33,410 nt of DNA, from contig NZ_AP022835.1 of the NCBI RefSeq assembly GCF_013394385.1, forward strand, positions 1 to 33,410, in the 5' to 3' direction. A program made the position numbers and the translations under genes. Below the pieces are notes generated by a model, which saw only the letters and a list, made by a program, of their open reading frames with translations, was not told where the DNA came from and made no database searches. Shown here piece by piece: positions 1 to 33,410 of the stretch (position 1 is its first letter; each line of letters opens with the position of its first letter). Source of the stretch: Kocuria sp. TGY1127_2. GTDB taxonomy: Bacteria; Actinomycetota; Actinomycetes; Actinomycetales; Micrococcaceae.

Positions 1-354
1 ATGAGAATGCGCGTCCAGCGCGGTGGATTCCTGATCGAGTCTGAACCAATGTTCCTGGATCCGATCCGCGAGACCATCAACAACGAGCTGACGAAAAGTA
101 CTGGTAAAGACCACGATTGGCGTCTCAGTGAACTAGAGCAGGCTACGACTGTTATCGGACTGCCCTCACCGATCAACCAGAAGACCAAACCCACCAATCC
201 TGCACTGGTGCCAATCTTCACTATCCTCATCAAGGCTGAAGCCAAGGCCGACATCTGCGAGCACTTGCGAACCCATGGGTTAGAGACCCGCACAATGTAC
301 CCTGACCTTCCTGGACTAGTCGACGAAGTGCGACGGAACTACCCGACCAGCTGA
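1..354 (+). CDS. FRG-domain protein, C-terminal part (continues from the window end)
   Basis: This frame is best read as the last 117 residues of the gene that starts at 32496, not as a separate protein that happens to begin with ATG at base 1. The gene at the window end stops on a complete codon (Pro-Asn) and base 1 continues in frame, giving 305 + 117 = 422 residues. The content fits: FRG domains end with a conserved stretch around a glutamine and a Gly-rich turn followed by FLI, seen here as VQRGGFLI (residues 5-12 here, 309-316 of the joined protein), and later with a helix and a 'hG.....hYPDL.GL' segment, seen here as LETRTMYPDLPGLVDEV. It has no ribosome-binding site of its own within the window. 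The continuity is seen directly; the circular join is inferred. If the molecule is linear, this is simply a partial gene. Confidence 0.82.
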   Translation: MRMRVQRGGFLIESEPMFLDPIRETINNELTKSTGKDHDWRLSELEQATTVIGLPSPINQKTKPTNPALVPIFTILIKAEAKADICEHLRTHGLETRTMYPDLPGLVDEVRRNYPTS

Positions 355-455: not shown

Positions 456-553
456 GACACTCGACGAAGTTTCCGCCCAGGCCGGGGTGCCGCTAGTTTC
501 CGCGGTTGTTCAATTCCCATAAGCCCCGCCCGAATAAATGCCCGGTGAAGGTG

Positions 554-577
554 TGTCAACCGGTACAGTTGTTGACA
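554..577. promoter_or_regulatory. Inverted repeat at the start of the first recombinase gene
   Basis: TGTCAAC (554-560) and GTTGACA (571-577) are perfect inverted arms separated by 10 bases, ending on the first base of the recombinase ATG. Serine resolvases commonly bind sites just upstream of their own gene, both to recombine and to repress themselves. This position and symmetry fit a crossover (res subsite) or an operator. That role is inferred. Confidence 0.45.
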
Positions 578-1140
578 TGCTGATCGGTTACGCACGAGTT
601 TCGACCACTGAGCAAGACCTCACCTCCCAGAAGGACGGTTTGAGTCGACTTGGCGTAGCCGAGTCGGACATCTACGTCGACCACGGTCTCACCGGCACCA
701 ATAGGTCGCGTCCGGGCCTGCGGGAGGCGATGGCAGCTGTTCGTGCCGGAGACACCCTGGTGGTGACCAAACTCGACCGGCTGGCCCGGTCGCTGCCGGA
801 TGCCCGCGATCTCGCAGCTGAGTTGACGGGTAAGGGTGTGACGCTGAATATCGGTGGCAGCATCTATGACCCCGAAGACCCCATCGGCAGGCTGTTGTTC
901 AACGTGTTGGGCATGGTCGCCGAGTTCGAAGCTGATCTAATCCGTATGCGCACTCGGGAGGGCATGGCAGTAGCCAAAGCTAAGGGGAGGTTGCGGGGTA
1001 AGAAGCCGAAGCTCTCCGTCTCGCAGGAGAGACACTTGGTCTCGCTGTACCGGGGTGGGGAGCATACGACGGCGGAGATTGCGGAGCTGTTCGGGGTGGC
1101 ACGCTCCACCGTATACAGAGCGATACAACGAGCTGCATAA
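577..1140 (+). CDS. Serine recombinase (resolvase/invertase family), intact
   Basis: A small serine recombinase of 187 residues. The N-terminal catalytic domain opens with YARVST, so the nucleophile is Ser9 with Arg7 beside it. The active-site loop TKLDRLARS follows near residue 65-73, and the long E helix (FNVLGMVAEFEADLIRMRTREG) runs near 108-130. The last 40 residues form a helix-turn-helix (TAEIAELFGVARSTVYRAIQ) that binds the recombination site. I chose the ATG at 577 because the catalytic domain starts there; an upstream in-frame ATG at 538 would add 13 residues with no homology-like character. The likely role is resolution of plasmid multimers or of a transposon cointegrate. A second, decayed copy lies at 8582-8990 in the same orientation, and the cargo block sits between the two. 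Confidence 0.88.
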   Translation: MLIGYARVSTTEQDLTSQKDGLSRLGVAESDIYVDHGLTGTNRSRPGLREAMAAVRAGDTLVVTKLDRLARSLPDARDLAAELTGKGVTLNIGGSIYDPEDPIGRLLFNVLGMVAEFEADLIRMRTREGMAVAKAKGRLRGKKPKLSVSQERHLVSLYRGGEHTTAEIAELFGVARSTVYRAIQRAA

Positions 1141-3652: not shown

Positions 3653-3692
3653 CAGATGCCCATCTTGATCATTCGGCCCGTCTCGGCAGGCC

Positions 3693-4859: not shown

Positions 4860-4883
4860 GTGCTCTCCTCGGCGTATGGCGGG

Positions 4884-12379: not shown

Positions 12380-12409
12380 ATCGTGCAAATTTGACCGATT
12401 CTGCACGAT
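12380..12409. promoter_or_regulatory. Inverted repeat upstream of the small acidic-protein gene
   Basis: ATCGTGCA (12380-12387) and TGCACGAT (12402-12409) are perfect eight-base arms with a 14-base spacer, 17 bases before the ATG at 12427. It is probably an operator for the three-gene run that follows. Confidence 0.55.
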
Positions 12410-13406: not shown

Positions 13407-13957
13407 AAGTCGGTTACGCCCGTGTCTCCACGAAGGCGCAGCGGGAATCCCTGACTACCCAGCGTGAGACCTTACAGGCCGATGGGTGTCAGCGAGTCTT
13501 CGAGGACACCGCTAGCGGGGTGAAATCCGATCGTCCCGGCCTGGCCGCGGCCATCGACTATCTACGCGAGGGGGATATTCTCGTGGTGACTCGCATCGAC
13601 CGGCTGGGCCGCTCGATGCTCGATGCCCTAAAAACCCTCATGGACCTCGACGGACGCGGTATCCGTGTCCAGGCCCAGGATGTCGGGCTGGATACTGGGA
13701 CCGCGATGGGCAAATTCGTGGTCCACGTGAATCTTGCGTTGGCTCAGATGGAGCGGGAGCAAATGATCGAGCGGACCCGCGAGGGTATCGAGCATGCCCG
13801 TAAGCAGGGCAGAGTGCCGGGTCCGAAGCCGAAACTGACCGGGCAGAGGAAGGCAGCGGTCATTGCTGCGGTGAACTCCGGCATGTCTATGACCGAAGCG
13901 GCCAAGTTGCACGGGGTTTCCCGGTGGACGGTGCAGCGGGCTTTGGCTGAGTCCTAG
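13403..13957 (+). CDS. Serine recombinase (resolvase), probably for plasmid multimer resolution
   Basis: A 184-residue small serine recombinase, distinct from the one at 577. The catalytic domain begins KVGYARVST (Ser9, Arg7), and the active-site loop is TRIDRLGRSM. The E helix is NLALAQMEREQMIERTREGI, and the C-terminal helix-turn-helix is MSMTEAAKLHGVSRWTVQRA. I chose the GTG at 13403 because the homologous domain begins at its second residue. GTGA overlap with the preceding acetyltransferase gives coupled translation, an unusual partner for a resolvase. The upstream in-frame ATG at 13385 would add six residues and is less likely. Confidence 0.88.
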   Translation: MKVGYARVSTKAQRESLTTQRETLQADGCQRVFEDTASGVKSDRPGLAAAIDYLREGDILVVTRIDRLGRSMLDALKTLMDLDGRGIRVQAQDVGLDTGTAMGKFVVHVNLALAQMEREQMIERTREGIEHARKQGRVPGPKPKLTGQRKAAVIAAVNSGMSMTEAAKLHGVSRWTVQRALAES

Positions 13958-17042: not shown

Positions 17043-17071
17043 GTGACTCAGGGTGGGACTGGCTCTAGAAT
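17043..17071 (+). promoter_or_regulatory. Putative traA promoter
   Basis: GTGACT (17043-17048) and TAGAAT (17066-17071) are spaced by 17 bases, about 30 bases before the traA start. The -10 box is good and the -35 box weak. Confidence 0.42.
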
Positions 17072-17103
17072 TCGCGCGATCATGCGGTATTCTGAGGTCC
17101 ATG

Positions 17104-20100
17104 ATGACCGTCCATAAGCTCTCAACGGGCGATGGCCACCTCTACTACACCAACGAGGTGGCCAGCGGTGATCAGTTGCGCTCCAGTGACCGCGAACTGA
17201 GCGATTATTACCAGGTCTCCGGGATGCCGCCAGGCCAGTGGATTGGCGCGGGGGCGGAACACTTCGGCCTTCGTGGCCAAGAGGTCACTGAACTGCAAAT
17301 GGACGCGCTCTATGGTGACGGATCAACCCCGATTGACGAAGCCAAGTTGACCCAGTGGAAGAGTGAAACTCGCAGGCAAGCCGAGGAATCGGTACGGGTC
17401 GAAGCTGCACGCAACGCCTACGCGGGGTTATCGAAGTATCGTCCTGATGCGAACAACTCTGAGGCGATCAAGGCGCTGAATACCTCCCGCAGTGCGTTCT
17501 ACCGGACCCTGGCACAGCACACGGCCATGGGCAACGATGAGCTGGCACGGGTCGCCGTCACAGCCGGAGACGAATCGATTTTCATCGACGGCTACAAGAT
17601 GACACCGGCCGAACAACGCAAGGCCACCGCGGCAGGTAATGACGCCATTCGCGCAGGCACCGATGATTGGGTTGAGGCGACCCGGTTGGGGAGAAAACCC
17701 GGCGAGTACAAGCAATCCCCGGATAACGAGTTTACACGTGAACTCGACGAACAATACCGTCGCCACTTCAAGACCACAGACGCTCCCCCGACCAAGACTG
17801 AGCGGAAAGAGATTCAGAACCGTGTCGCCGGACAGCAATTTCGTGATCTTCACGGCCGCGACGGAACCGCGGCAGAGATCGCCGCACACATCGCAAACAA
17901 TTCGAAGCCGCGTCAGCAGTCGGTGGCCGGGTTCGACCACGTATTCACCCCCACCAAGTCCGTTTCGATGGCCTGGGGGCTCGGTGATGAGGCTCTGCGG
18001 ACCGGGATCGAATCAGCTCATGAGTCTGCGATCAACGACGTCGTTGATTACCTGAATGACCATGCAATCTATGCTCGTCGTGGTCAACACGGACGCGAGC
18101 AGATCGACACCGACAAGGGCCTGGTGGCCACGAAGTTCCGTCACTATGATTCCCGATCCGGAGACCCGAACCTGCACGATCACCTCGTGATCGCTAACAG
18201 GGTTAAAGGTGCTGACGGGAAATGGTCAACCCTGGACGGACGGCTGCTTTTTCAGCACGGTGTGGCCGCCAGTGAACTTTACAATGCTCGGATCATGCAC
18301 CATATCCACGAGACACTTGGTCTGGAATTTACCCCGACTGAGGTACGGGGGAAGAAGATTTGGGAGCTGGCCGGGATCAGCCGCGACGACGTGTCGAAAT
18401 TCTCCGCACGCTCCGTTTCCATCAAGGAAGCGTTGGAGACGGTCGAGGCTGAGTTCGTTGAACGGCACGGCCATGCCCCGACCCCGGCGCAACGGAACAA
18501 GCTGGCTCAGCAAGCCACGCTGGCGACCCGACCGGAGAAGGACGGACCGCATTCGCTCGAAGAGCTGAACCAGCAGTGGGTCGCCAAAGCGAAGGTCGCC
18601 ACCCCTGACCTGCCGCTGGGTGAGCACCTCCACGAACATCTGAAAACGGCTTCCACGCAACGGGCCGGTGAGGTCTCGGTCCAGGTGGCGGAGTCGTTGG
18701 CGATGACACCGCAAGAACATGTCGATGCGATCATCAGCCGCCTGGAAGAATCGCGTTCAACGTGGCGGAAAACGAATATCAACGCCGAGGCGACCCGGTA
18801 CTTCACCGACATCATGGGCGGACATCCCGTCGATGCTGACCTGAAACAGACTGTCGTTGATCAGGTCGTTGATGCTTCCGTGTCGATGACACCGGAGCTG
18901 GGTGTGGCACTGCCGCAGGGCAAAGAGTTCGTCCGTGAAGACGGTACGAGTATTTACTTACCCGCCAACCGCGAGGTCTTCACCAGCGAGGGGATCATCG
19001 CCAACGAGAAGTATCTTCTCGATGCCGCTTCCACACGGGAGGTCATCCCCGTAGCCTCGAACGAGGCCTTCGAAACCGCCTTGGAAGTAGCGCAGGAATC
19101 GGCCGGGAAAAAGGGTTATCAGATTGATGCGGGCCAAGAATCTTTGGCTCGGGAATTGGCCACCAGTGACAAGCTGGTGGCGTTCGGGATTGGCCCGGCC
19201 GGTGCCGGTAAAACCACGGCTTCAAAGATCATGGTCAACACCTGGATAGCAGAAGGGGCCCAAGTTCACGGGTTGGCACCGACCGCGGTCGCCGCCGATG
19301 TCCTGTCGAAAGACGCCGGAGTCACCGCAACCACCATTGATTCATTCCTGACCAAAGATTCCCCCGCCGCCGCAAAGATTCGTCCCGGTGATGTTTTCCT
19401 GGTGGATGAAGTCGGGATGGTATCCACGCCCAAATTGGCAGAGCTAGTGTCTCTGGCTGAGGCGCGCGGGGCTCTCGTGCGTGGTATCGGTGACGATCAG
19501 CAGCTCGGTGCCATCGGTGCCGGTGGTGCGCTGCGGCTGATTGACCGGGAAGCAGGCTGCACCCGCCTGGATCAGGTCCACCGCTTCCGCAACCCGGACA
19601 ACCCCGCCGAGGCCAACCTGGAAGAAGCAGCCGCCTCTCTGGCGCTACGTGAGCCTCCGGCTCGTGGTGAAGACAAGCCGTTCGACTGGTACGTCGAGCA
19701 AGGACGCATGCAGGCCGGTGGCCACGACACGATGGTCCAACAGGTCTTCCACGACTGGACCATAGATACAGAGGCCGGGAAGCTCTCGCTGATGATGGCC
19801 CCGACCAATGCCACGGTGACTGAGCTCAACGAGCTTGCCCAGGCCCGTGCCATCCGCAACGGTGCTGTTGATGCTTCACAGACGGTCACCACCCACGCCG
19901 ATGTGGCTATCCATCCCGGAGATCGGGTACTCACACGCAACAACGACCACCGGTTGGGCCTGAACGGCGGTAAAGACTTCGTGAAAAACGGGGACCTCTG
20001 GAACGTCCTGGCCACCCACGACGACGGTAGATTGACGGTCCAGCACGAGAAGCACCACGGCAAAATCACCTTGCCCGCCCACTACGTCAACGAGTGGGTC

Positions 20101-22329
20101 GAGCTCGGGTACGCGGCCACGATCAACCGGGCCCAAGGTTCCACGGTTGATGTGGCACGGGCGATCCTCGATCAGAACACCGAACGCTCTGATGCCTACG
20201 TGGCGCTGTCCAGGGCGACATCCGGCAACTACGGCTACACCGAGACCACAGCAGACCTGACCCGTGACCAGATCCTTGAATCCATCAGCCAGGCCTACGA
20301 TGTGAACATCTCCGTCCACGAGCAGGCCCAACGCATGAGGGCCGAAGACAGGTCGCCTGCCGAGAGGATCGACCTCTACACCAACCTGAGCCTGCACGCA
20401 TCTGAGAAGGCGATGGAACAGGTCACCGGTGAAGCACTCGGTCTCACTCGGGCCAACCAGCTCAAGGCCAACGACGGCTGGGGCGCACTAGCTCATGAAT
20501 TGGCCGATGCGACCGAGAAGGGCCTGGACCCGGCCGCGCTGGTCAAGGCAGCGCACGATCAGCGGGACTTCGGCAACGCCGAAGACGAATCGGCTGTGCT
20601 GCACTGGCGGATCAAAAATCTGCGTGCCCGTGACGAGCAGATCCGAGACACCGCCGGTCCCCGGCCGCTGGCGAGCATCCCTGATGAACACCTCGACCGG
20701 TTAATCGCCACAGCGAACGCATCCACCGAAACCGACTCCAAAAGAAGCCAGTTGGAAGACCCCAACTGGGACAAGCGCGAATTCGGGATGGTCCCGACCG
20801 AGGAACTGAACAAACGCCGGACCAGCCTGGCAGAGACCATGCGCGAGAACGGAGACCCTGAATACCGGTGGCTGATGTCCGAGATGGACGCCGAAGCCTC
20901 CCGTCGCAGGTGGTCCTCCCCCGCGCAAAAACAGTTTGAGGAGATCGCCCGCGGGGAAAAGTCCCGAAGCGGACACGATGTCACCATTCAACACGCTTTG
21001 ATCCAAGAGAAAGAGCTACGGGACTCGCTGTTGCCGACCGCTGAAAAGCACGAGAAGGCTGATGGAGCCACCATCACCCACGGAGTCTCGGAACACACCG
21101 CCTCGACGTTCTGGATGACCAATCAGCACACTCCGCAGGATTTCCGATCCATCTTGGAGGAGCACCACCAGGAAATCGGAGAACTCACCACACTGCGAGG
21201 CAAGCAGCTCGCGTCCGAGAAACCGGCCTGGACACATGCCCTCGGTGAGGTACCGGCCAATCGGAAGAACGCAGCCCAATGGCACCGGGTCGCCGGTGAG
21301 GTCGATGCTTTCCGAGCCCGGTACAACATTCCGGATTCGGAAGAACGGGCGATCCCGAAGAAGTACGCCCATTCCGACGAAGGGGAATACCTGCAATCCC
21401 AGGTGACTGAGGTCCACAAACGCGGGGTACTGTCCAACCGGCCCGGACAGACCGAAGGACAGAATCACGTTGTGGCCGAAGAAGCCACCGCTATCCGGTC
21501 GGCAACCGAGACGCTGACCGAGGCCGAAACCAAGATCGACACCCAAACCGATGCCGCTCAAAAGAAGTGGGAGGAAGCCCTCATGGACATGGACACCCAA
21601 TGGGATGAGGTCATCACAGCATGGCAACAGGAAGAAACCGCACGTACCGAGCATGAGCAGGCCGAAGAGGACGCCGAGGAAGCCCGGCAACGGGTCCAGG
21701 AAGAGAAGGACAAACTCGACACCATCGCCGAAGACTTGCAAGGTCAGGTCAACCGTGACTATGCCCCGGTCGCTCGTGCCGAACAAGATCTGGAAGAAGC
21801 CAACTTCTTCAACCGTGGGTCCCGGACCAAGGACTGGCAGGAAGAACAAGCCCGGTTCAAGGATAAGTACGGCTTCGATGATCCCGACGCGGCCTACAAC
21901 CAGGACTGGCTGGACCAGGACGATACTTACTCCGCGCAGAAGAGCGCCCTTGACGAAGCCAGCGACGAACTCGACGTCGCACAACAGAGAGCACAGGGCA
22001 CCGGGCAGGCACTAGAGACCGCCCACCAGTCCACTCAAGAGGCTTATGATTCCTACGCCGAGGTCAGGGACGAGAATCCGGCTACGCGGGTCACCCGTCC
22101 CGAGGCTGACGAGAGTAAGAACCAGGCCCGGCTCGATAAGGCCGAACGTCGGGATATGTCTGCCTTGCAGCGCGGGCAACGACCCACCGACCAGTTGCGC
22201 AACGAACGCGATGTCGCCAATTGGGCACAGGGCACCCGAGAGAAACAACGAAAGGCTCAATCCACTCAGACGCAATCGCCTGCCGTACTGGATCAGCAAC
22301 GGACACAGAAGAACTCCCGCAGCCTCTAA
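17104..22329 (+). CDS. traA: MobF relaxase-helicase (TraA/TrwC-like)
   Basis: A 1741-residue conjugative relaxase. Residues 1-~380 are the TrwC-type relaxase. Tyr14-Tyr15 sit in the N-terminal strand region where the catalytic tyrosines lie, and the metal-binding histidines are His347, His358 and His360 in HYDSRSGDPNLHDH. Residues ~670-1050 are a RecD-like helicase: Walker A GPAGAGKTT at 697-705, Walker B VDE at 767-769 and the late motif YVALSRAT near 1032. The rest, ~1100-1741, is highly charged with long coiled coils (about 1440-1680) and no recognised domain. The enzyme nicks at oriT, stays bound to the 5' end and unwinds the strand for export. ATG 17101 and ATG 17104 are adjacent possible starts; GAGG lies a few bases before. 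No coupling protein or secretion genes follow, so transfer must rely on a helper element. Confidence 0.94.
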   Translation: MTVHKLSTGDGHLYYTNEVASGDQLRSSDRELSDYYQVSGMPPGQWIGAGAEHFGLRGQEVTELQMDALYGDGSTPIDEAKLTQWKSETRRQAEESVRVEAARNAYAGLSKYRPDANNSEAIKALNTSRSAFYRTLAQHTAMGNDELARVAVTAGDESIFIDGYKMTPAEQRKATAAGNDAIRAGTDDWVEATRLGRKPGEYKQSPDNEFTRELDEQYRRHFKTTDAPPTKTERKEIQNRVAGQQFRDLHGRDGTAAEIAAHIANNSKPRQQSVAGFDHVFTPTKSVSMAWGLGDEALRTGIESAHESAINDVVDYLNDHAIYARRGQHGREQIDTDKGLVATKFRHYDSRSGDPNLHDHLVIANRVKGADGKWSTLDGRLLFQHGVAASELYNARIMHHIHETLGLEFTPTEVRGKKIWELAGISRDDVSKFSARSVSIKEALETVEAEFVERHGHAPTPAQRNKLAQQATLATRPEKDGPHSLEELNQQWVAKAKVATPDLPLGEHLHEHLKTASTQRAGEVSVQVAESLAMTPQEHVDAIISRLEESRSTWRKTNINAEATRYFTDIMGGHPVDADLKQTVVDQVVDASVSMTPELGVALPQGKEFVREDGTSIYLPANREVFTSEGIIANEKYLLDAASTREVIPVASNEAFETALEVAQESAGKKGYQIDAGQESLARELATSDKLVAFGIGPAGAGKTTASKIMVNTWIAEGAQVHGLAPTAVAADVLSKDAGVTATTIDSFLTKDSPAAAKIRPGDVFLVDEVGMVSTPKLAELVSLAEARGALVRGIGDDQQLGAIGAGGALRLIDREAGCTRLDQVHRFRNPDNPAEANLEEAAASLALREPPARGEDKPFDWYVEQGRMQAGGHDTMVQQVFHDWTIDTEAGKLSLMMAPTNATVTELNELAQARAIRNGAVDASQTVTTHADVAIHPGDRVLTRNNDHRLGLNGGKDFVKNGDLWNVLATHDDGRLTVQHEKHHGKITLPAHYVNEWVELGYAATINRAQGSTVDVARAILDQNTERSDAYVALSRATSGNYGYTETTADLTRDQILESISQAYDVNISVHEQAQRMRAEDRSPAERIDLYTNLSLHASEKAMEQVTGEALGLTRANQLKANDGWGALAHELADATEKGLDPAALVKAAHDQRDFGNAEDESAVLHWRIKNLRARDEQIRDTAGPRPLASIPDEHLDRLIATANASTETDSKRSQLEDPNWDKREFGMVPTEELNKRRTSLAETMRENGDPEYRWLMSEMDAEASRRRWSSPAQKQFEEIARGEKSRSGHDVTIQHALIQEKELRDSLLPTAEKHEKADGATITHGVSEHTASTFWMTNQHTPQDFRSILEEHHQEIGELTTLRGKQLASEKPAWTHALGEVPANRKNAAQWHRVAGEVDAFRARYNIPDSEERAIPKKYAHSDEGEYLQSQVTEVHKRGVLSNRPGQTEGQNHVVAEEATAIRSATETLTEAETKIDTQTDAAQKKWEEALMDMDTQWDEVITAWQQEETARTEHEQAEEDAEEARQRVQEEKDKLDTIAEDLQGQVNRDYAPVARAEQDLEEANFFNRGSRTKDWQEEQARFKDKYGFDDPDAAYNQDWLDQDDTYSAQKSALDEASDELDVAQQRAQGTGQALETAHQSTQEAYDSYAEVRDENPATRVTRPEADESKNQARLDKAERRDMSALQRGQRPTDQLRNERDVANWAQGTREKQRKAQSTQTQSPAVLDQQRTQKNSRSL

Positions 22330-24552: not shown

Positions 24553-25987
24553 GGCTCTTCACAATTCGGGGTGTAGGTGTGGTCTGAATCCGCCGGCTTC
24601 GAGGAGTGCGCGGGCGATGTAGTTGGTGAGGTTGCGGAAGCCGAGGGCCAGGCCACGCAGGTGCTCGAGGCGACCGTTCACGGCTTCGGTAGGTCCGTTG
24701 CTCGTGCGCGGCCGGTCGAAGTAGGCCAGGACGTCGCAGGCGCGTCTGGTCAGGGTGCGGCCGAGCTTGCGCAGTTCTACCAACGCCTCAGGCACACTGT
24801 CGGCGAGGGCGTCGATCACGGAGCTCATCTCGACGCGGCCGGCTGCCCGGTCGGGGTGACGGTAGGCGGAGATCATGCGCTGGTAGATCCCCCAGGTGCA
24901 CTCGACTTGCACGTGCCGGTCCCCAGCGAAGAGCTTGTCAAGGCGCTCGTGCTGGCGGTCGGTGAGCAGGTCAGCCCCGGTGTGCAGGGTCCGCCGCGCG
25001 GTGTAGAGCGGGTCGCCCTTGCGTCCGCGGTGTCCGTGCAGTTCCTGCTGGACTCGGCGGCGGCACTCATCGAGAGCGTCCCCGGCCAACCGGATGACGT
25101 GGAAGGGATCCATAACCGTGACGGCGTCCGGCAGCTCCTCGGTGGTGGCGGTCTTGAAGCCCGCGAACCCATCCATGGCCACGACCTCGATCCCATCGCG
25201 CCAAGCCTGGTCCCGCTCGGCCAGCCAGTCCTTGAACGCCTTCTTCGACCGACCTTCGACCACGTCCAGCAGGCGTGAGGGCCCGGTGCCGTCCCGGACC
25301 GGGGTGAGGTCGATGATCACGGTGACGTACTTGTCACCGCGCCGGGTGTGCCGCCACACGTGCTCATCGACCCCGACGACCTTGACACCGTCCAGGCGGG
25401 TCGGGTCCTCGATGAGCAGACGCCGGCCCTCAGCCAGGACCGCGTCGTTGGCGGTGTTCCACGCCACGCCCAGTCCTTCGGCAACTCGGGCCATCGACAG
25501 GTGGCCGACGACGATCCCGACCAGACCCCACCGCAGGCCGGCGCGGGAGATCTTGGCCCGCGGCGGCGCCGCAGCGGTGGTGTCCTGACGCCACACGTGC
25601 GAGCACTCCTTGCAGCGGTAGCGGCGCACGGTGAGCACCAGCGTGGTAGGGCGCCACCCGAACGGCTCGTGCGCCAACTCCCTGCTCACCGTGTCACGGG
25701 GCACGCCCTGGCAGCCGCACCGCCTGCACCAGTCGTCCGGCTCCACGACCCGGCACGCCAGCACGGACCGGTCAGGCTCGAGCAGCTGGCCGGTGACCTC
25801 CAGACCGAGGCCGTCGAGGCGGGTGAAGGTAGTCAGGTCAGGGCGCGTGAAGGTAGCGTCAGGCACGTCGAGGTCTTCCGGACGGGTTGTGTGAGAACTC
25901 CCATCATCGGAAGACCTCGACCCTCACCCCGACACCGACGCGCCGCCCCAGGTCGCACCACAGCTACACCCTCATCTGTGAAGAGCC
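24553..25987 (-). mobile_element. ISL3-family insertion sequence, complete
   Basis: The ends are imperfect inverted repeats beginning GGCTCTTCACA. The left end reads GGCTCTTCACA then GGGTGTAG-G-TGTGG; the right end, read inward, is GGCTCTTCACA then GGGTGTAG-C-TGTGG. GGCTCTTC is the usual ISL3-family terminus. One transposase fills the element. The flanking eight bases (CAACATCC on the left, GGTATTCT on the right) do not match, so there is no visible target duplication. This suggests a later deletion or recombination next to the element. Confidence 0.85.
24559..25866 (-). CDS. ISL3-family transposase
   Basis: A 435-residue transposase. The N-terminal zinc-ribbon-like part has Cys pairs (WCRRCGC and YRCKECSHVW) for end binding, followed by a helix-turn-helix (GHLSMARVAEGLGVAWNTAN). 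The DDE_Tnp_ISL3 catalytic domain follows: VVGVDEHVWRHTRRGDKYVT with the first Asp, VVAMDGFAGFKTATTEELPD with the second, and TSNGPTEAVNGRLEHLRGLA with the catalytic Glu. The length is typical and there are no breaks, so the element may still be active. It is GC-richer than the neighbouring rep gene, which suits a recent arrival. Confidence 0.93.
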   Translation of the reverse strand: MPDATFTRPDLTTFTRLDGLGLEVTGQLLEPDRSVLACRVVEPDDWCRRCGCQGVPRDTVSRELAHEPFGWRPTTLVLTVRRYRCKECSHVWRQDTTAAAPPRAKISRAGLRWGLVGIVVGHLSMARVAEGLGVAWNTANDAVLAEGRRLLIEDPTRLDGVKVVGVDEHVWRHTRRGDKYVTVIIDLTPVRDGTGPSRLLDVVEGRSKKAFKDWLAERDQAWRDGIEVVAMDGFAGFKTATTEELPDAVTVMDPFHVIRLAGDALDECRRRVQQELHGHRGRKGDPLYTARRTLHTGADLLTDRQHERLDKLFAGDRHVQVECTWGIYQRMISAYRHPDRAAGRVEMSSVIDALADSVPEALVELRKLGRTLTRRACDVLAYFDRPRTSNGPTEAVNGRLEHLRGLALGFRNLTNYIARALLEAGGFRPHLHPEL

Positions 25988-26108
25988 GGTATTCTTGAAG
26001 TACGTCTCAGATTGCTTTGAAATCAGCTGAAGCACTCTGGGGTGAGGAATCGAGACTCTGAGAAGCCGGTAGGAGCACGCGAACTGACAACGCGGAAGGA
26101 GTCGACTT

Positions 26109-27326
26109 TTGACGACTCACAAGAGTGAACCCACCGGGACGACGCAAAGCCCGACGGGGGAGGTAGTGGTCGGGGTGCTGGCCGATCCGGTCGCCACCGC
26201 CCTGACAGTCGCGAAGCATCTCGAACGGAAACTGCCTGGCCTACTCGCCGAGCAGCTCGCTGACGGTCACTGGAGAGTGGAGGTGCACCGAGAGAGGCTG
26301 CCTCCCAGTGACGAGAAGCGGTTTGAGATGATGGACCTGGCAGCCGAGCGTAAGCGGGAACATGGCTGGGACCTCGCGGTATGCGTGACCGACTTGCCAC
26401 TGATGATCGACCGGCGCCCCGTCGTCGCTGACGCCGACCACAGTCGGAACGTGGCGGTGGTTTCACTGCCGGCCTTCGGGGCCATGAACCTACGAAGGCG
26501 AGTTTCAGAGGTGGTGACGCAGCTCATTGGGGACATGCGCGGCGGGACCACTCCGAAGGACGGGTCCCAGGCGCATCGGCGGTCACGGGTCCCGGCTCTG
26601 GGCGGCGCCTTCGAGCGGACGACCCCAGACCAAGACGGGGTCGACGTCCGTATCTTCGCGAACCGCGGGCGGCTGCGGCTGCTCGTGGGAATGGTCCGGG
26701 ATAATCGTCCGTGGCGGCTGGTCTCCGGTCTCCGAGGGGCGTTGGTGGGAGCGTTCGCGTTCAGCGCGTTCTATCTGTTGAACACCACGCTGTGGGAACT
26801 CGCACTCACCATGGCAGCGTGGCAGCTGGTCGCCGTCGTCGTTGCCTCAATTACGGCAATGATCACTTGGCTCATCGTCTATCACCGCCTCTGGGAACGA
26901 GCCAAAGATCTGCCGCCGCAGGAACGTGAGCGAACGGTGCTGTTCAACGCGTCGACTGTCTTGACCCTCGCTATTGGGCTGATGTGCGGCTATGCGGGGC
27001 TGTTCGTCCTGAACCTGACTGCCGCGCTGATCGTTTTCACTCCGGAGGTGTTCACCCAGTACGCCGGAGACGCATACGGACTGGGCGAGTATCTCCTGGT
27101 GACCCTGTTCGCGACCGCCGCTGCGACGATCGCGGGTGCGATTGGGTCTGGCTTCGAAAGTGAAGAGTCGGTGCACGAGGCCGCCTATAGCTACCGGGAG
27201 CGCGCACGGCGCGAGAAGCGGCGCCGCTCACGCAGCGCAGAGAACAATGACAGCGCGGTCCACGACGCGGCGCAGAACGACGACACATCTCGTGCAGAGG
27301 ACTCCGATGCAGGCCCGGACCACTGA
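26109..27326 (+). CDS. Actinobacterial membrane protein of unknown function
   Basis: A 405-residue protein from a TTG at 26109, chosen because AAGGAG lies eight bases upstream. Residues ~20-200 are a soluble alpha/beta domain (VVVGVLADPVATALTVAKHL, HGWDLAVCVTDLPLMIDRRP, NVAVVSLPAFGAMNLRRRVS). Residues ~205-350 carry four membrane helices, and the tail is charged and Arg/Asp-rich. The layout matches a family common in actinobacterial genomes whose function is not established; I recall some members labelled as tetrahydrofolate dehydrogenase, which nothing here supports. On a plasmid it may be cargo brought in with the IS. It sits 121 bases after the ISL3 element and is not obviously part of the partition operon. 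Confidence 0.7.
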   Translation: MTTHKSEPTGTTQSPTGEVVVGVLADPVATALTVAKHLERKLPGLLAEQLADGHWRVEVHRERLPPSDEKRFEMMDLAAERKREHGWDLAVCVTDLPLMIDRRPVVADADHSRNVAVVSLPAFGAMNLRRRVSEVVTQLIGDMRGGTTPKDGSQAHRRSRVPALGGAFERTTPDQDGVDVRIFANRGRLRLLVGMVRDNRPWRLVSGLRGALVGAFAFSAFYLLNTTLWELALTMAAWQLVAVVVASITAMITWLIVYHRLWERAKDLPPQERERTVLFNASTVLTLAIGLMCGYAGLFVLNLTAALIVFTPEVFTQYAGDAYGLGEYLLVTLFATAAATIAGAIGSGFESEESVHEAAYSYRERARREKRRRSRSAENNDSAVHDAAQNDDTSRAEDSDAGPDH

Positions 27327-27671
27327 GGAGGCAATAGGTCGGCGGTGGATGGTGGGGCTCAAGTTCTTCGCGTACGTAAGCCCTGCCCGCATGAATGGTC
27401 GCTGAGGGATCCCTCAACGAGCTACTACTTTCGTTTTTGGTAGACATAGAAGCGATCACCATAGCCATACCCGCAACGCTGATGGGGTCTGCTGCACGAT
27501 CCGGTGACATCCGACCGTGCAGCGGCACTCCCGGCTACACCCTCGATCGCGAAGAGCCCAACATCCCCACGAACACTCATACCCACTTACCCACAAACAT
27601 GGGGTAGTGGATTTCCCCATTTACACATACGGGGGTACCCACCAATGTGGGTATGTGGTAATGTGTCATAC
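27327..27671. other. Intergenic region upstream of parA with palindromes and partition-type repeats
   Basis: It holds no gene. TGAGGGATCCCTCA (27403-27416) is a perfect 14-base palindrome. GCTGCACG (27491-27498) and CGTGCAGC (27516-27523) are perfect arms of a possible hairpin. The last 90 bases carry the partition-type sites listed separately. Short tandem-like CCCAC/CCAC motifs run from 27556 to 27660. Confidence 0.6.
27588..27653. repeat. Partition site/operator repeats before parA
   Basis: TACCCAC-CAAT-GTGGGTA (27636-27653) is a perfect inverted repeat. TACCCACAAACATGGGGTA (27588-27606) is an imperfect copy. The same motif recurs in and after the downstream partner gene, so these are probably ParB-type binding sites that serve as centromere and/or operator. 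Confidence 0.65.
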
Positions 27672-28265
27672 ATGAGCACCACAATAGGAATCGTCCAATC
27701 GAAGGGCGGCGTCGGAAAAACCACAACCGCCATTTATCTAGGACTGGCCCTCAAAGATCACGGCACGGTCGAAGTCTGGGATGCTGACCCGCAGGGCTCA
27801 GCCACCGAATGGGCGGACGCTACCGCCGCCGCTGGCTACCCCTTGCCATTCCCGGTGACGGCGGTCAACGAGCCGCAACTGTCCAAAAAAGACAGTGAGG
27901 CGAGCTATCTGATCATCGACACCGGCCCCGGTAACCCTCGCGTCATGGACAAAACCATTGAGCGCGCTGACGTCGTCATCATTCCGACCAAGTCCAGCAG
28001 TGTGGACATGGCGAGGACGTGGTCAACGCTCGATGCCCTGCCGGAAGACCAGCCCGCGATCCTGTTAATGACACAGACCGATCCCCGCACGATCACGCAC
28101 CGACAAACGATCGAGGCGATAGATCAAGACGGGGCTGCATATTTCCAGACCCCCATCAAACACAAGGAATCCATCAAGGGCAGCGGGAACGGATACCCGA
28201 ACGACCTCGCCGGATATGAAGAAGTCGCAACAGAGCTCATCGAGCGCATCAAGGAGATGTCATGA
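27672..28265 (+). CDS. parA: ParA-family partition ATPase
   Basis: A 197-residue ATPase of the short (type Ib) ParA group, lacking the N-terminal DNA-binding domain of longer ParAs. The deviant Walker A motif is SKGGVGKTTTA at residues 10-20, with the signature Lys. The A' region is VEVWDADPQGSATEWAD and the Walker B region YLIIDTGPGNPRVMD. It moves plasmid copies to daughter cells by cycling on the nucleoid with its DNA-binding partner. ATG 27672 starts the conserved fold; the -10-like GGTAAT lies close upstream and no ribosome-binding site is evident, so the message may be leaderless. Its stop overlaps the partner's start (ATGA), a typical parAB arrangement. Confidence 0.93.
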   Translation: MSTTIGIVQSKGGVGKTTTAIYLGLALKDHGTVEVWDADPQGSATEWADATAAAGYPLPFPVTAVNEPQLSKKDSEASYLIIDTGPGNPRVMDKTIERADVVIIPTKSSSVDMARTWSTLDALPEDQPAILLMTQTDPRTITHRQTIEAIDQDGAAYFQTPIKHKESIKGSGNGYPNDLAGYEEVATELIERIKEMS

Positions 28266-28498
28266 CAGAAAAACGAGGGTCCATGACGCGCAGAAAACCC
28301 ACGCAACAACAATCCCACGAAACCACAAATGTGGGTATGGGGGCGGCATTCCCAAACCGAGCGGAGGGGGAGGTTCAACGTCGCCTGTCCGTAGACGTCC
28401 CCGAGTCAGTAAAGAAGAAGATCAAGCGGATCGCAACTGAACGAGACACAACCGTCCGCAAACTGATCATCGACTTCATCGACGATCTAGACACATAA
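28262..28498 (+). CDS. Ribbon-helix-helix partition partner (ParB/ParG-like)
   Basis: A 78-residue protein starting in the parA stop. The N-terminal 35 residues are flexible and basic, the type of arm that stimulates the ParA ATPase in ParG-like proteins. The C-terminus is a ribbon-helix-helix: strand QRRLSVDVPESV, helix KKKIKRIATERD, then TTVRKLIIDFIDDLD. It should bind the TACCCAC-N4-GTGGGTA repeats around the locus as centromere-binding protein and repressor. One copy of the repeat core (CCACAAATGTGG, 28323-28334) lies inside its own coding sequence. Confidence 0.8.
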   Translation: MTEKRGSMTRRKPTQQQSHETTNVGMGAAFPNRAEGEVQRRLSVDVPESVKKKIKRIATERDTTVRKLIIDFIDDLDT

Positions 28499-28503
28499 CC
28501 ACA

Positions 28504-28534
28504 TACCCACATACGTGGTACCCACAAATGTGGG
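28504..28534. repeat. Partition-type repeats between the parA partner and ssb
   Basis: TACCCACATACGTGGTA (28504-28520) and CCCACAAATGTGGG (28521-28534) lie head to tail. They repeat the motif found before parA and sit 22-52 bases before the ssb start, so they may tie ssb to the same regulator. Confidence 0.65.
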
Positions 28535-28555
28535 CCAATCCTTCGAGGAGTCCCA

Positions 28556-28948
28556 ATGAGTAACGAGATCCCCCTGACGATCGTTGGCAACCTCACCAAA
28601 GATCCCGAGCTTCGATACCGACCCGGCGGGGGAGAGGCAGTGCTGAGCTTCACGGTGGCCTCCACCCCGCGATACTACTCCAAGGCCGAACGGGACTACG
28701 TCGATGGGGAGACCACGTTTATGCCGTGCTGGCTGAACTCGCGAGGCAGCGAAGCCGCCAACGGGTACCTGGAACGACTCTCGGAGACCTTCAAAAAAGG
28801 CGATCACGTGATCGCCGTCGGGGAACTGATCACCAAGACCAAAGACACTGACGGGCAGACTCAGCGATGGAATGAACTCAAGGTCCGCGAGATCGGAGCT
28901 TCCCCGCGATTCCGGACCGTCACCATCGACCGGGAGACCACCAACTAG
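28556..28948 (+). CDS. ssb: Single-stranded DNA-binding protein
   Basis: A 130-residue SSB with the OB-fold core: IPLTIVGNLTKDPELRYRPG at the start, then AVLSFTVASTPRYYSKAERD, CWLNSRGSEAANGYLERLSE and KKGDHVIAVGELITKTK. It lacks the long Gly/Pro-rich linker and the acidic C-terminal tip of chromosomal SSBs, as is common for plasmid copies. It probably protects single-stranded plasmid DNA during replication or after conjugative entry. AGGAG lies eight bases before ATG 28556. It follows the partition locus and precedes a small membrane-protein gene by 12 bases. Confidence 0.92.
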   Translation: MSNEIPLTIVGNLTKDPELRYRPGGGEAVLSFTVASTPRYYSKAERDYVDGETTFMPCWLNSRGSEAANGYLERLSETFKKGDHVIAVGELITKTKDTDGQTQRWNELKVREIGASPRFRTVTIDRETTN

Positions 28949-28960
28949 GGGAGAGCAGCC

Positions 28961-29242
28961 ATGAGCCAAGAACAGCAACCATTTCTTCCCGAGTACTACA
29001 AGCCCTCGCGGGCCAAGCGGTCCTTCTCGGTGTGGCGAATGGTCACGGCGCCGGTGCGATGGGGCCACCAAGCGGCCCGTACCGCGGCCCCGTTCATCGG
29101 CATGCTGTTCTTCTTCATTCCCGGAGCCCGCAATCGGTTCGGCTTGGGATACGTCTACGCCTGGTTCCTGATGATCTTCTTCATCGCAGCAGTCGCAACC
29201 AGCCTCGTCCTGAGCACAGGCAGCACCCATCAACACCCCTGA
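28961..29242 (+). CDS. Small membrane protein downstream of ssb
   Basis: A 93-residue protein with a soluble, basic N-terminus (PFLPEYYKPSRAKRSFSVWR) and two hydrophobic segments (AAPFIGMLFFFIPGA and WFLMIFFIAAVATSLVLSTG). It is 12 bases after ssb, with GGGGAG before its ATG, so it is co-expressed with ssb. I do not recognise the family. In this place it may belong to a transfer or establishment operon whose remaining genes were lost when the restriction module arrived. Confidence 0.68.
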   Translation: MSQEQQPFLPEYYKPSRAKRSFSVWRMVTAPVRWGHQAARTAAPFIGMLFFFIPGARNRFGLGYVYAWFLMIFFIAAVATSLVLSTGSTHQHP

Positions 29243-29465
29243 GACAACGACTCACCATCGAAAGGACAGACCAATGAGCACCCACGAAGCGAACAGATGT
29301 GTAGCACAATTCATCAACTGACGGTAGACTTGCACATGTAGAACGTGCACCGAATTATGCACACAACGCGGCGAATGATGATCCGCGGCAATCCGGTCTT
29401 CGTACAGCAGCATCTCTCACAGGCCGGAGACTGGTGCATGATGGACCGAACGTGGTGCAGAGACT
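29243..29465. other. Short stretch with gene fragments before the restriction-modification gene
   Basis: GAAAGGAC precedes an ATG at 29274 whose frame (MSTHEANRCVAQFIN) stops after 15 codons. It looks like the first codons of the next operon gene, cut off. A further small frame, ending GDWCMMDRTWCRDSN at about 29472, is not recognised. This probably marks the join between the ssb operon and the defence module. Confidence 0.45.
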
Positions 29466-32288
29466 CTAACTAACGGTCAGGTCCTGATAGTTGCGGAACA
29501 AGATCTCCAGGCGTTGCTCTTCGGTGCTTAGTTTCTTCGTTGCTCCGAGGGCTTTGTCTACGGCTCGATCGAGTTTGTCGTGGGCCTTCAGTAGAGCTGG
29601 GTCCATGGCTAGGGGGTTGTAGTGTTCGGCCAGGGAACGGTCAGGATGTAAGGCGCGAGCTTCGAGTACCCTCTGCCCACCTTCGATGATCTGTTCTCTC
29701 TGGGAGTCGGTCAGGTTCGGGAGTGGGAAGGTGTACCAGGTCAGAGTTGAGCCGAAACGCAGTCGTGATTCCAGCCGTCCTCCGATGGCTTTCTGCCAGG
29801 CCAAAAACATCGATGACGACAAGGTCGCGAACTGCAGCCCATCTGGGTCTGTGATCGTAAAGTTCGCATCACCAGCGATGACCTCGGGGTCGAACCGCTT
29901 GACCGTAAAGTATTTGCGGGTTTCTGAGACATGTCGCGGGATACAAACGAATGGTTCGTCTTGCTTGGCCAACTGCCGGAACAGGTGGTGGTGCGGGTAC
30001 TCGCGAGTGGAAGCGGCTTTGGATGCTGCGCGGAAGTCGCGGACAGCCGCGATGCGTTCTTTCAATATTGGTGACCGTTGGGCATCGGTAGGGTCCATGC
30101 CTTCCAGCCAGAGGCACCAGCGATCCTGGTTGTGTAGAAGTTCCTTAGCGCCGACGTAGGGGTGCAGGTATTTCGCGGCGATGGGGTCTTCAGCAACGTG
30201 TGCGTAGTCCTCTTCCGAGACGAGTAGATTCCCGCCGTCGCTGGGCTTAGAGCCGTATGAGGTGGTGTTTAGAACTGGAGATAGCATGGTCGAGCGTTTC
30301 TCTACCAGGACTGTTGGCCCGTCGACTAGGTACGGGTTCACTGCTTGACCTACCGGGATTTCTACGGCATCGGCATTAATTGAGGGGTAATCGAATAGGC
30401 GTGCTTTCGGTTCGCGGGCCCGGTCGAACCCTACGATGACGCAGTGGACCGCGGCCTTGCCTGGTGCTTGGGAATCCCAGGCGAAGGTTCGATGCGCGAA
30501 GCGGATACGCCATCCCTGATTGAAGATGGGACCGAATAAGCGGGGCACCTGGTCACCTTGAGTGATGGAGTTGGTGGTCACAAAAGCGAAGGCCCCATGT
30601 CGGTCCTGGTAGTAGTTCAAGGCCTTGGCATGCCAGCCGGTAACGAAATCTAAGCGCGATAATTGTGGGTTACCTCCCCAGGCCTGCCGCAGGTCTTCTA
30701 GCTGTTCGGGCGTGCGGGTGTGGTCCCCCAAAAACGGCGGGTTTCCGAAGATAAAGCTTTGGCCTTCGGGGTCTGGCAGGGTATGCGACCAGTCCAGGCG
30801 AAGAGCGTTGCCGTGGGTAATGTGGGCGGTGATCTCAATAGGTAACCGGTCCGGGGCCTGACCAATCGCTCGTGCCAGGCGGAGGTTCGCCTGGTGATCG
30901 ACCAGGAACATCGCGGTTTCAGCGATCTTGGCCGGCCACCAGTTGATCTCGAACCCGTAGAACCGGTCGATCCTCAACCGCTGATCCAAAGTAGCGTCCA
31001 ATGACTGGGTGAATTCCCCGCCGCGGCGCTGTTTCTCGGCCAGCAGGGACGTTTCGATATCCCGCAGCTTGGCGTAGGCGAGGTTGAGGAAGTTCCCGCC
31101 GCCGCAGGCCGGATCGCAGTAGATGTTCGAGGCCATCTCATTGATGAAGGCATCGAAGTCTTTGGCACGGGTGGACTTGTTCCGAATCAGCCGATCAGCT
31201 CGGGACTGGTACTGGTCCAAAAACAGTGGCCCGATGGTTTTCAGGATGTTCGCCTCGGAAGTGTAGTGCTCCCCAGCCGCCCGACGGGCTTCTTTGGATT
31301 TGACCAGTTGGAACATGGCACCGAAGACCGAAACGCTGATCCGGTTCCACTGGAAACGGCAGGCTGCCAGCAGGACCTCGTGAGTTTCTGGGGTGAAGTA
31401 CTCAACGAAGATCGCCTCGTCGAAGATTCCACCGTTGACATAGGGAAACCTGCTCAACAGATCCGGCAGATTTCGGGACCGCTTGTGCACCGGGGTGTTC
31501 AGGACTCGAAAGAGGTCACCCAGTTGTGGTGCCAGGCTGGTTGGTGTGGTCTCGTCGCTCACCCACCGGTAGAACAGGTCCTTTTCCCACAGTCCGGCAT
31601 CGTCACCATAGAGCAGGAACAGTAGCCGGGTCATCAGGATCGAGGTTCGTTCCTGGGCCTGGTCTTCCTCCTCGGGGTTTTCGGCTGCTTCGTCACCGAC
31701 AGCAGCATCAGTATCGTCGCCGAGAATGGACGTATAGAGTTCGGCCATCAGCCCGGCCGCAGCGGTCGAGGCCTGTTCCTGCTCGACCTCGGTGATGGTC
31801 TCTTCACCGATCAGAAATCGTAGCTGGTCGTAGTGGCCAGCGATGTCTTCCAGGTCGAAGCGCAGTTCCGGTTCGGTGTCGTCCAGGCGCAGGATGCGGA
31901 TGGTGGCGAAGTTGGTCACGATGGCGTATTTGGGCCATTCGGATTGGCGAATACCGCCACCGGCCAGGTAGTCGTTGATCTGCCCGACAGCCTCATCCAA
32001 CTCCACGTCGAGGGATTTGGCTTCTCCGATGGCCACACCGGTCATGAAGAAGTCGATCCACCCGTGTTGGCCGGTGGTGGCTCGGGTGGCATCGCGTTCG
32101 AACAGGTTGATGCGTTCGGGGATGATCCCGAAGCAACGCAACAGATCTGACCAGAAGGACTGGGCGTATTTCTTCTCGGTGGCCTTTTCCACATCCTGTC
32201 GCCACTGAGCGATACGATCCGTCCAGAAGTGGGCGAAGTCGGTCAGCTTCTGGGTGGAGGTCGCGCGGTCGAGGAAGTCGTGGGCCAT
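29466..32288 (-). CDS. MmeI-like type IIL restriction-modification enzyme (single-chain endonuclease and N6-adenine methyltransferase)
   Basis: A 940-residue enzyme. The nuclease part shows Asp79, nine residues, then Glu89-Ala-Lys91 (IDF...GEAKS), the same D-X9-E-X-K spacing as in MmeI. A helical connector follows to about 335. The methyltransferase core has AAGEHYTSEANILKTIGPLF (337-356), the AdoMet motif DPACGGGNF (392-400) and the catalytic motif GNPPF (515-519), an N6-adenine type. From about 620 to 860 is the target-recognition region, followed by a helical C-terminus. The length matches MmeI (about 919). Such enzymes cut a fixed distance from the site and methylate one strand, so no separate methyltransferase is needed. 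It is the only restriction gene seen. It stands alone on the minus strand, divergent from the FRG-domain gene. The ATG at 32288 follows TATGCT closely, so it may be leaderless. Alternative: a BREX-type methyltransferase, made unlikely by the nuclease motif. Confidence 0.9.
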   Translation of the reverse strand: MAHDFLDRATSTQKLTDFAHFWTDRIAQWRQDVEKATEKKYAQSFWSDLLRCFGIIPERINLFERDATRATTGQHGWIDFFMTGVAIGEAKSLDVELDEAVGQINDYLAGGGIRQSEWPKYAIVTNFATIRILRLDDTEPELRFDLEDIAGHYDQLRFLIGEETITEVEQEQASTAAAGLMAELYTSILGDDTDAAVGDEAAENPEEEDQAQERTSILMTRLLFLLYGDDAGLWEKDLFYRWVSDETTPTSLAPQLGDLFRVLNTPVHKRSRNLPDLLSRFPYVNGGIFDEAIFVEYFTPETHEVLLAACRFQWNRISVSVFGAMFQLVKSKEARRAAGEHYTSEANILKTIGPLFLDQYQSRADRLIRNKSTRAKDFDAFINEMASNIYCDPACGGGNFLNLAYAKLRDIETSLLAEKQRRGGEFTQSLDATLDQRLRIDRFYGFEINWWPAKIAETAMFLVDHQANLRLARAIGQAPDRLPIEITAHITHGNALRLDWSHTLPDPEGQSFIFGNPPFLGDHTRTPEQLEDLRQAWGGNPQLSRLDFVTGWHAKALNYYQDRHGAFAFVTTNSITQGDQVPRLFGPIFNQGWRIRFAHRTFAWDSQAPGKAAVHCVIVGFDRAREPKARLFDYPSINADAVEIPVGQAVNPYLVDGPTVLVEKRSTMLSPVLNTTSYGSKPSDGGNLLVSEEDYAHVAEDPIAAKYLHPYVGAKELLHNQDRWCLWLEGMDPTDAQRSPILKERIAAVRDFRAASKAASTREYPHHHLFRQLAKQDEPFVCIPRHVSETRKYFTVKRFDPEVIAGDANFTITDPDGLQFATLSSSMFLAWQKAIGGRLESRLRFGSTLTWYTFPLPNLTDSQREQIIEGGQRVLEARALHPDRSLAEHYNPLAMDPALLKAHDKLDRAVDKALGATKKLSTEEQRLEILFRNYQDLTVS

Positions 32289-32483
32289 GAATTACAGCAT
32301 ACGGAACGGGCGGTCGATCCCTAGTAGGTCGGACAGGCGACAGGCCTGTTTGCGAGTCGGTAATTCTATGAGGACCAGACACTGGTGACAGTGTGGAGGA
32401 ACCCCTCTCCGAGCTACCTCTTGCTTTTGGGTTTGTTCGAGGATGCGGAACGGTTCTTTCCAGCCTGGTGGTGGCCCACCGCC

Positions 32484-32489
32484 TAAACT
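32484..32489 (+). promoter_or_regulatory. Putative -10 box of the FRG gene
   Basis: TAAACT ends six bases before the ATG at 32496, so the message would be leaderless. No clear -35 box is seen. The 207-base divergent region to the restriction gene shows no strong palindrome. Confidence 0.4.
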
Positions 32490-32495
32490 CTACTC

Positions 32496-33410
32496 ATGGC
32501 ATCAAATGACGCGGTTGGTGAAGACGAGGACGAATCTAGGTATTCCCTCAGCTCGGGAGCGGGTCCCCAGAGCAACTATGCCCGGTTGTTGAGCCAGAAT
32601 CTGCAGTTACCATCAGTAGATGCCATGTTAAGCCAAGCCATACAGGCGGGAGCACAGCGGTCATTCCAGCTCCCCAGTGTGTCCGACATTCTCGCGAAGA
32701 GTCGCCAGAACCTCCTTAAGCAGATGCAGTCCGCGATCAGTGTTGACGTGTCTTCCGTGTTGGCCGACAGCGTGATCCAGTCCTGGCAGAAAGAGCGCCG
32801 TAGCGATCCGCGTAAGCAGTGGACAGCTCGGAAGTTCCTGACCGCCAACGCCGTCGGAGTCTCTAACCTCCAGCAGTTCACCAGTGTCCTGGCGAAGTTT
32901 TCACCCCGGCATTCCCAGCACGAACTTGTCTGGCGTGGACAAAGCAACGCTGACTGGCCGGTTCGATCAACCCTCTCTCGAGCGATCACTCGGAGCAACG
33001 GCACCGAAAGGGCCACCGAAGATGATCTCAACACAGCGGAGACCGAGATCCTCAAATCCGTTCGCAACTGGGGTTTGGGTTCTGCCGAGCTTGCATTCAC
33101 CCCACTGCAAATCCTTGCCCAGCTGCAACACGCTGGTGCTCCCACCCGACTCCTTGATGTCACTCGTGACCCTGAGATTGCCGCCTGGTTCGCCGTCAAT
33201 GATAAGTCTGACCATGACGGTCTCCTCATTGCTTGGGGTCAGCACCCACGGGTCCGTCATGGTGTCCACAAGTACGAGCCCACCAGCGAATTCCTCGACC
33301 CCGCAGACAACAAGCTTTTCTGGCACGACTTCTTGAGCGAGGAAAAGCGTCGAGACAGAAGCTGGGGCACCGGGGAGCGAGTCCACGTCTGGTTCCCTTC
33401 CGCCCCCAAC
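32496..33410 (+). CDS. FRG-domain protein, N-terminal part (continues at base 1)
   Basis: The frame from ATG 32496 stays open for 305 whole codons to the last base and continues at base 1 for 117 more, to a total of 422 residues. Residues 1-115 are a polar N-terminus with amphipathic helices (SVDAMLSQAIQAGAQR, SVSDILAKSRQNLLKQ) and no known domain. The FRG domain follows: LVWRGQSNADWPVRSTLSRA (144-163) with the Arg-Gly pair that helps name the family, then LAQLQHAGAPTRLLDVTRDP (207-226) and EIAAWFAVND, a hallmark stretch, and the closing part at window positions 1-354. FRG-domain proteins are found in phage-defence and mobile-element loci, but their activity is not settled. It is divergent from the MmeI-like enzyme, suggesting a defence role, perhaps as a back-up effector. 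The latter is inference. Confidence 0.85.
   Translation, partial: MASNDAVGEDEDESRYSLSSGAGPQSNYARLLSQNLQLPSVDAMLSQAIQAGAQRSFQLPSVSDILAKSRQNLLKQMQSAISVDVSSVLADSVIQSWQKERRSDPRKQWTARKFLTANAVGVSNLQQFTSVLAKFSPRHSQHELVWRGQSNADWPVRSTLSRAITRSNGTERATEDDLNTAETEILKSVRNWGLGSAELAFTPLQILAQLQHAGAPTRLLDVTRDPEIAAWFAVNDKSDHDGLLIAWGQHPRVRHGVHKYEPTSEFLDPADNKLFWHDFLSEEKRRDRSWGTGERVHVWFPSAPN

Follow-up and report, generated by a model that had tools for sequence, protein, structure and literature searches.

The PrrC nuclease guards a type I restriction enzyme. In its idea of linking an effector gene to restriction, this arrangement resembles a locus on a small plasmid of Kocuria sp. TGY1127_2, where the gene for a type IIL restriction-modification (R-M) enzyme of the MmeI family stands beside the gene for an FRG-domain protein. 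PrrC is a nuclease, however, whereas the FRG protein appears from its predicted structure to be ADP-ribosyltransferase (ART)-like, and its gene is divergent from that of the enzyme. The two genes lie in a stretch of 33,410 bp, termed the window here, which is an entire contig of a 3.0 Mb genome assembled in two contigs. The relative of known structure on the enzyme side is MmeI itself (PDB 5hr4), a five-domain single chain with a D-X9-E-X-K nuclease motif and the methylase motifs DPACG and NPPF. Its catalytic residues are given as D70, E80 and K82 in PMC4833311. For FRG domains, our literature search found no tested activity of FRG proteins and, as far as titles and the opening lines of abstracts tell, no description of an FRG protein linked to R-M.

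An earlier note on this DNA had proposed that the two genes form a two-part defence module. We find that both genes are real and intact. The reading that we prefer, with moderate confidence, is that each works as a defence gene by itself and that the two are stacked at the left end of a plasmid cargo, without forming a conserved two-part system.

The two genes are intact

The MmeI-family enzyme is a chain of 940 amino acids in which five Pfam MmeI domains score above their cut-offs, giving the N-terminal, helical spacer, methylase, target recognition and C-terminal domains in one polypeptide, as in MmeI. It matches the PADLOC model REase_MTase_IIG with 1096 bits, and its residues 35-938 align with MmeI (PDB 5hr4) at an E-value of 6e-178 (phmmer). 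The nuclease site, D79-X9-E89-X-K91, is intact and aligned with D70, E80 and K82 of MmeI, and the methylase motifs DPACGGG and NPPF begin at residues 392 and 516. The description of this protein in the earlier note, as a complete type IIL enzyme with a D-X9-E-X-K site, is therefore borne out. NCBIfam has a model for neither this protein nor the FRG protein.

A recognition target was read by hand from a single pairwise alignment with MmeI 5hr4, using the residue code in PMC4833311. The window enzyme retains the counterparts of MmeI L805, E806, R808, R810, A774, Y642 and K645, and differs from MmeI at E751 (R), N773 (D), F737 (R), Y738 (Q) and T752 (H). Retention of Y642 and K645 gives C at position 2. 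Changes at E751 and N773 are tied to G:C at position 3 in that source, and the joint replacement seen here gives G. A774 with R810 gives R at position 4, and E806 with R808 gives C at position 6. Position 1 is the least sure call, with a gap in the alignment there: the retained A723 and the change of Y738 to Q suggest A, and the change of F737 to R suggests G. The target is probably ACGRAC or GCGRAC, not TCCRAC, with the methylated base being the A at position 5. One residue weighs against this assignment, namely the His found in place of T752, which contacts position 5 and is called well conserved in PMC4833311.

The FRG protein carries the domain PF08867 with 63.1 bits against a cut-off of 25 (Pfam), and 14 PDC-S15 models, the FRG candidates of PADLOC, match it with a best E-value of 6e-27. 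An alignment of 16 proteins, six of them fusions of the kind described below, shows no variation at R147, T217, R218, D221, R307, Q311 and F315. In two alignments, with 21 and 15 other proteins, the FRG protein has the residues that those proteins have in common. Relatives match over the full length, and one relative is 78% identical. The structural model resembles ADP-ribosyltransferases with modest scores; Foldseek gave no match at an E-value of 0.001, and no solved structure matched the FRG protein by sequence at E-values up to 1.

The earlier note had singled out the N-terminus of the FRG protein as lacking a known domain, and this holds in that residues 1-142 have no Pfam match. A hidden conserved domain in this region was considered and rejected on the grounds that there is no Pfam match, that the segment varies among homologues and that confidence of the model is low: the predicted local distance difference test score is below 50 for residues 1-38 and lies between 53 and 77, by blocks, for residues 41-110. 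Shorter relatives (P0021 and P0022, for example) are without the extension of about 115 residues. Judged from alignment and model, it is a variable, partly disordered tail.

The back-to-back order of the two genes, with nothing between, was as the earlier note had described. Its span for the locus (29466-32495) contains the MmeI gene, but the FRG gene, starting at 32496, falls outside. A promoter-like match at 32391-32363, directed at the MmeI gene, overlaps a 16 bp dyad. The dyad (ACACTG-GTGA-CAGTGT, 32379-32394) has perfect 6 bp arms and is a possible operator.

MmeI and FRG genes are rarely neighbours

A fixed pairing of the two genes had been suggested, with the proviso that homologues rarely found together would speak against it. 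We examined 396 genomes of the same order, taking an E-value of at most 1e-30 as a strong MmeI_Mtase match. FRG occurs in 29 of them and, among the matches listed, strong MmeI_Mtase matches in 52, with the window genome in both sets. Both are present in five genomes, the window's own and four others (G109, G217, G246 and G387), as compared with about 3.6 others expected by chance, and in each of these four the matches are on separate contigs or more than 600 kb apart. None of the 28 other FRG-bearing genomes in this sample has a strong MmeI_Mtase match near FRG; in one (G106), FRG lies approximately 3 kb from an open reading frame (ORF) of 1673 codons with a weak match (E-value 1e-6).

The best 80 of 107 FRG loci from GTDB genomes were also searched by tblastn with the window enzyme. 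Genes in these loci were called by our own script, and many of the loci stop at contig ends. One of the 80 (L088) has a full-length MmeI-family neighbour, which is in tandem with FRG and lacks the nuclease motif, and one other locus (L046) gave a weak partial match. Window positions 27000-33410 match 49 plasmids, some over the ssb part only, and the 40 of these that were listed include none of the 12 FRG-bearing plasmids; six plasmid loci with MmeI-like genes contained no FRG by annotation or by tblastn at an E-value of 0.01. Phage records gave five MmeI matches at an E-value of 1e-40, and three FRG loci are in viral contigs. Homologues of the two genes are thus rarely together, and the neighbour counts in the 396 genomes, the 80 FRG loci and the six plasmid loci led us to reject a fixed module. 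As far as these sequence counts reach, this exact pair does not recur as a system.

The single tandem locus, from a Bacteroidales assembly (L088:5163-7907), is also represented by a viral contig (L090:5178-7922), which is the same DNA over the 4 kb compared letter for letter. As in the window, an MmeI-family gene with five MmeI domains adjoins FRG. In contrast to the divergent genes of the window with their 207 bp, the Bacteroidales genes are on the same strand with a 7 bp gap, and the FRG protein is 25% identical to that of the window. The nuclease Glu of the enzyme is aligned with Lys and no D-X9-E-X-K motif was found in it, whereas the window site is intact. FRG may therefore stand, in this locus, where the nuclease is lost.

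FRG genes near and fused to DNA methyltransferases

For FRG and METHYLTRANSFERASES, 10 of the 80 loci have a methyltransferase gene of type I, II, III, IIL or DISARM at most 4.4 kb from FRG. They overlap FRG in L046, L035 and L078, and the distances in the remaining loci are 7 bp (L088), 217 bp (L011), 603 bp (L041), 909 bp (L057), 1118 bp (L012), 2.3 kb (L029) and 4.4 kb (L052). PADLOC assigns these genes to DrmMI (L046), type I M (L035, L052), type III (L078, L041) and type II (L011, L012, L057, with L012 and L057 also matching DruM); Pfam concurs for seven methyltransferase loci, and gives MmeI for L088 and PF02384 matches in L029. In L046 (5787-14715), FRG is located between DrmMI and DrmA, with overlapping ends, within a DISARM-like gene order. 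The HmaC gene of L030 (6619-9849) matched its own seed only and was left out of the methyltransferase count; it lies 620 bp upstream of FRG, and an ORF with methylase motifs is found farther upstream (2355-5153).

No methyltransferase was found 5-10 kb from FRG in the 80 loci by phmmer, an emptiness that is biased because the seeds were taken partly from genes adjoining FRG. An unbiased check used PF02384, which gave 44 match rows in 39 genomes (about 160 Mb). Matches lie within 5 kb of FRG in two of 40 loci (L029, L035), as compared with approximately 0.1 expected when contig ends are ignored. The scan of next neighbours covered 151 of 153 ORFs, the two from L090 being omitted as copies of those in L088, and was compared with 121 control ORFs about 7 kb from FRG (122 chosen, one dropped for size). 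Among the controls, HmaB, MTase_II, REase_I and mREase_IV have one member each and mad3 was found in five. FRG loci are therefore defence-rich at large, which weakens a specific tie between FRG and methyltransferases.

Genes of the ADP-ribosylglycohydrolase type adjoin FRG in three Microbacterium loci (L025, L026 and L027), by overlap, at 83 bp and at 177 bp; the one in L027 carries a dual-specificity phosphatase domain. L034 also has a homologue, at a distance of 659 bp from FRG.

FRG is also found within larger proteins. A search with the FRG part of one fusion (P0051) as query yielded 453 matches, of which 120 were listed under length limits that favour fusions. N6_Mtase and FRG are joined in a single HsdM-FRG protein in 47 of the 120 matches listed (P0051, P0069-P0114), a count that is not a rate, since the query is itself a fusion. 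The motif R-x(2-3)-Q-x-G-x-F of the FRG part is present in 45 of the 47; P0051 stops before it and P0109 is one residue off. Methylase motif I reads YDPxCG in 41. Motif IV, covered by 46 of the fusions, is NPPF in 16 and SPPF in one, and in 29 its Asn is replaced by V, A, I or C (V in 26). Many of the fused methylases are therefore probably inactive, and a fusion that has lost the Asn is possibly a decayed methylase acting as a sensor. The fusions share their FRG core with the window protein. They differ in that their FRG domain forms one chain with a type I M-like protein, which has often lost its catalytic Asn, whereas the window FRG is free-standing beside an intact enzyme. We conclude that FRG and R-M proteins have probably become linked on more than one occasion. 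Searches for the genomic setting of the fusions did not find it: 194 genomes around G468 gave five matches at an E-value of 1e-60, all to the HsdM part alone; there were nine plasmid records, none reaching beyond query residue 439; and two viral contig records, with their best segments within the HsdM part.

The suggestion of the earlier note that FRG acts with restriction is thus supported as a broader link, through methyltransferases near FRG and the HsdM-FRG fusions, and not for the exact MmeI pair. We regard this wider FRG-methyltransferase link as strong enough to test.

The pair lies at the edge of a plasmid cargo

The ends of the contig have zero overlap. We infer that it is circular, because the FRG open frame crosses the join and full-length relatives span it. 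Parts of the plasmid backbone are similar to plasmids of Kocuria sp. TGY1120_3, and sequence comparison with one of these, pTGY1120_3_1 (L093), identifies a segment of 16.35 kb, from window position 29450 round to 12392, that is missing there. This segment is cargo, as the counterpart of 29449 abuts the counterpart of 12393 in pTGY1120_3_1. The MmeI and FRG genes make up its left end (Table 1).

Table 1. Positions in the window of the MmeI and FRG genes and of the features around them.
Feature	Position	Strand	Remarks
Type IIL restriction-modification enzyme (MmeI family), 940 amino acids	29466..32288	-	Pfam, PADLOC, phmmer
Divergent intergenic region, 207 bp	32289..32495	.	Between MmeI and FRG starts
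FRG-domain gene, codons 1-305 of 422	32496..33410	+	Runs on at window position 1
FRG-domain gene, codons 306-422 and stop	1..354	+	Across contig join read as a circle
Serine recombinase (Resolvase domain)	538..1140	+	Pfam; 183 bp past FRG stop
Right junction	12383..12398	+	Sole other GTGCA-N(3-7)-GACCG match in circular window
ssb, plasmid backbone	28556..28948	+	SSB domain
ORF of 93 amino acids 3' of ssb	28961..29242	+	No Pfam match
Left junction, GTGCA-N5-GACCGA	29434..29449	+	Backbone stops, cargo starts

The circular window contains the pattern GTGCA-N(3-7)-GACCG twice, at 29434 and 12383, and these are the two junctions. It is also present at the uninterrupted site of pTGY1120_3_1 and at break points in L094 and L095, where it is followed by different DNA. 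We read the pattern as the probable site of crossover by a serine recombinase. It is short, and there is one further match elsewhere in L093 and two in L094. A block shared with pTGY1120_3_2 at 82% identity starts at window position 440, in the region of the recombinase gene. A search with the same pattern found no junction motif at this second break. From the left junction and the break near 440 it follows that MmeI and FRG fill the approximately 4.4 kb between two break points. The earlier claim that the pair interrupts an ssb operon does not hold for the pair by itself, and was replaced, after comparison of the junctions with pTGY1120_3_1, by the view that the pair is the edge of the 16.35 kb cargo.

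Further observations concern the rest of the plasmid. Two recombinase-gene stretches in the cargo (739-1133 and 8582-8975) are 79% identical to each other, which may be a sign of repeated cassette capture, and the ORF at 13385-13957 resembles another serine recombinase by eye. Cargo positions 7049-8255 and 9528-10545 are like alcohol-dehydrogenase-type and ACR3 arsenite-transporter genes of other actinobacterial plasmids. Positions 24553-25988 (1,436 bp) are 100% identical to pTGY1120_3_2 in reversed orientation, and are possibly an insertion element that has moved recently.

Discussion

If the MmeI and FRG genes are two self-sufficient defence genes, their adjacency would result from accumulation of cargo at a recombination hot spot. 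The type IIL enzyme would methylate plasmid and host DNA and cut unmethylated incoming DNA. The FRG protein, with a core predicted to be an ADP-ribosyltransferase-like domain, would serve as an abortive-infection effector that, on sensing an intruder, consumes NAD+ or ADP-ribosylates a target.

We consider it rather unlikely that the FRG protein instead guards the restriction enzyme of this plasmid, such that inhibition or titration by a phage, or stalling, would free FRG and shut the cell down. Such coupling would agree with the methyltransferases within 4.4 kb of FRG, which belong to unlike R-M types and in four loci overlap FRG or lie at 7 bp, with the many HsdM-FRG proteins recovered by a query that is itself a fusion, and with the tandem Bacteroidales locus. 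However, no further divergent MmeI-FRG pair was seen in the genomes, FRG loci and plasmid MmeI loci surveyed, and among the 13 top-listed FRG loci (L010-L022) a methyltransferase is near in L011 and L012 only. The window genes, being divergent, are not on one transcript, and their order is not that of an effector inside a restriction operon, as would be expected of a PrrC-like system.

Restriction genes stabilise plasmids, and both genes are on a small plasmid with a recombinase gene beside them. FRG might accordingly serve plasmid maintenance as a post-segregational killer or a weapon against competitors, with MmeI as its partner in stability and phage not the main target. The ADP-ribosylglycohydrolase-type genes of the three Microbacterium loci would be possible reversal enzymes under such a scheme. 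In the window, however, FRG is flanked by the MmeI and recombinase genes and by no antitoxin-like gene, and 46 of the 80 FRG loci are on contigs, of whatever kind, longer than 100 kb; we judge maintenance to be improbable. It is more improbable still that the FRG gene is cargo that has decayed or fallen silent. Its third-position G+C content (0.66) is slightly under that of the MmeI gene (0.71) and of an ORF of 1758 codons at 17053-22329 (0.70), but the full-length reading frame, the shared conserved residues and the relative at 78% identity speak against decay.

A wider proposal, which we put forward tentatively, is that FRG is a general plug-in ART-like killer that has been wired repeatedly and independently to methylases of types I, II, III and IIL and of DISARM. 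One branch would have become fused to a decayed HsdM-like sensor, and in the window FRG would guard or back up an intact type IIL enzyme. The links of FRG to unlike R-M types, together with the fusions to decayed methylases, make it testable whether failure of restriction sets off FRG as an effector. The window offers a compact case for this question: the enzyme is intact, a target motif is predicted for it and the FRG protein is not part of a fusion, so that the two genes could be tested singly and together.
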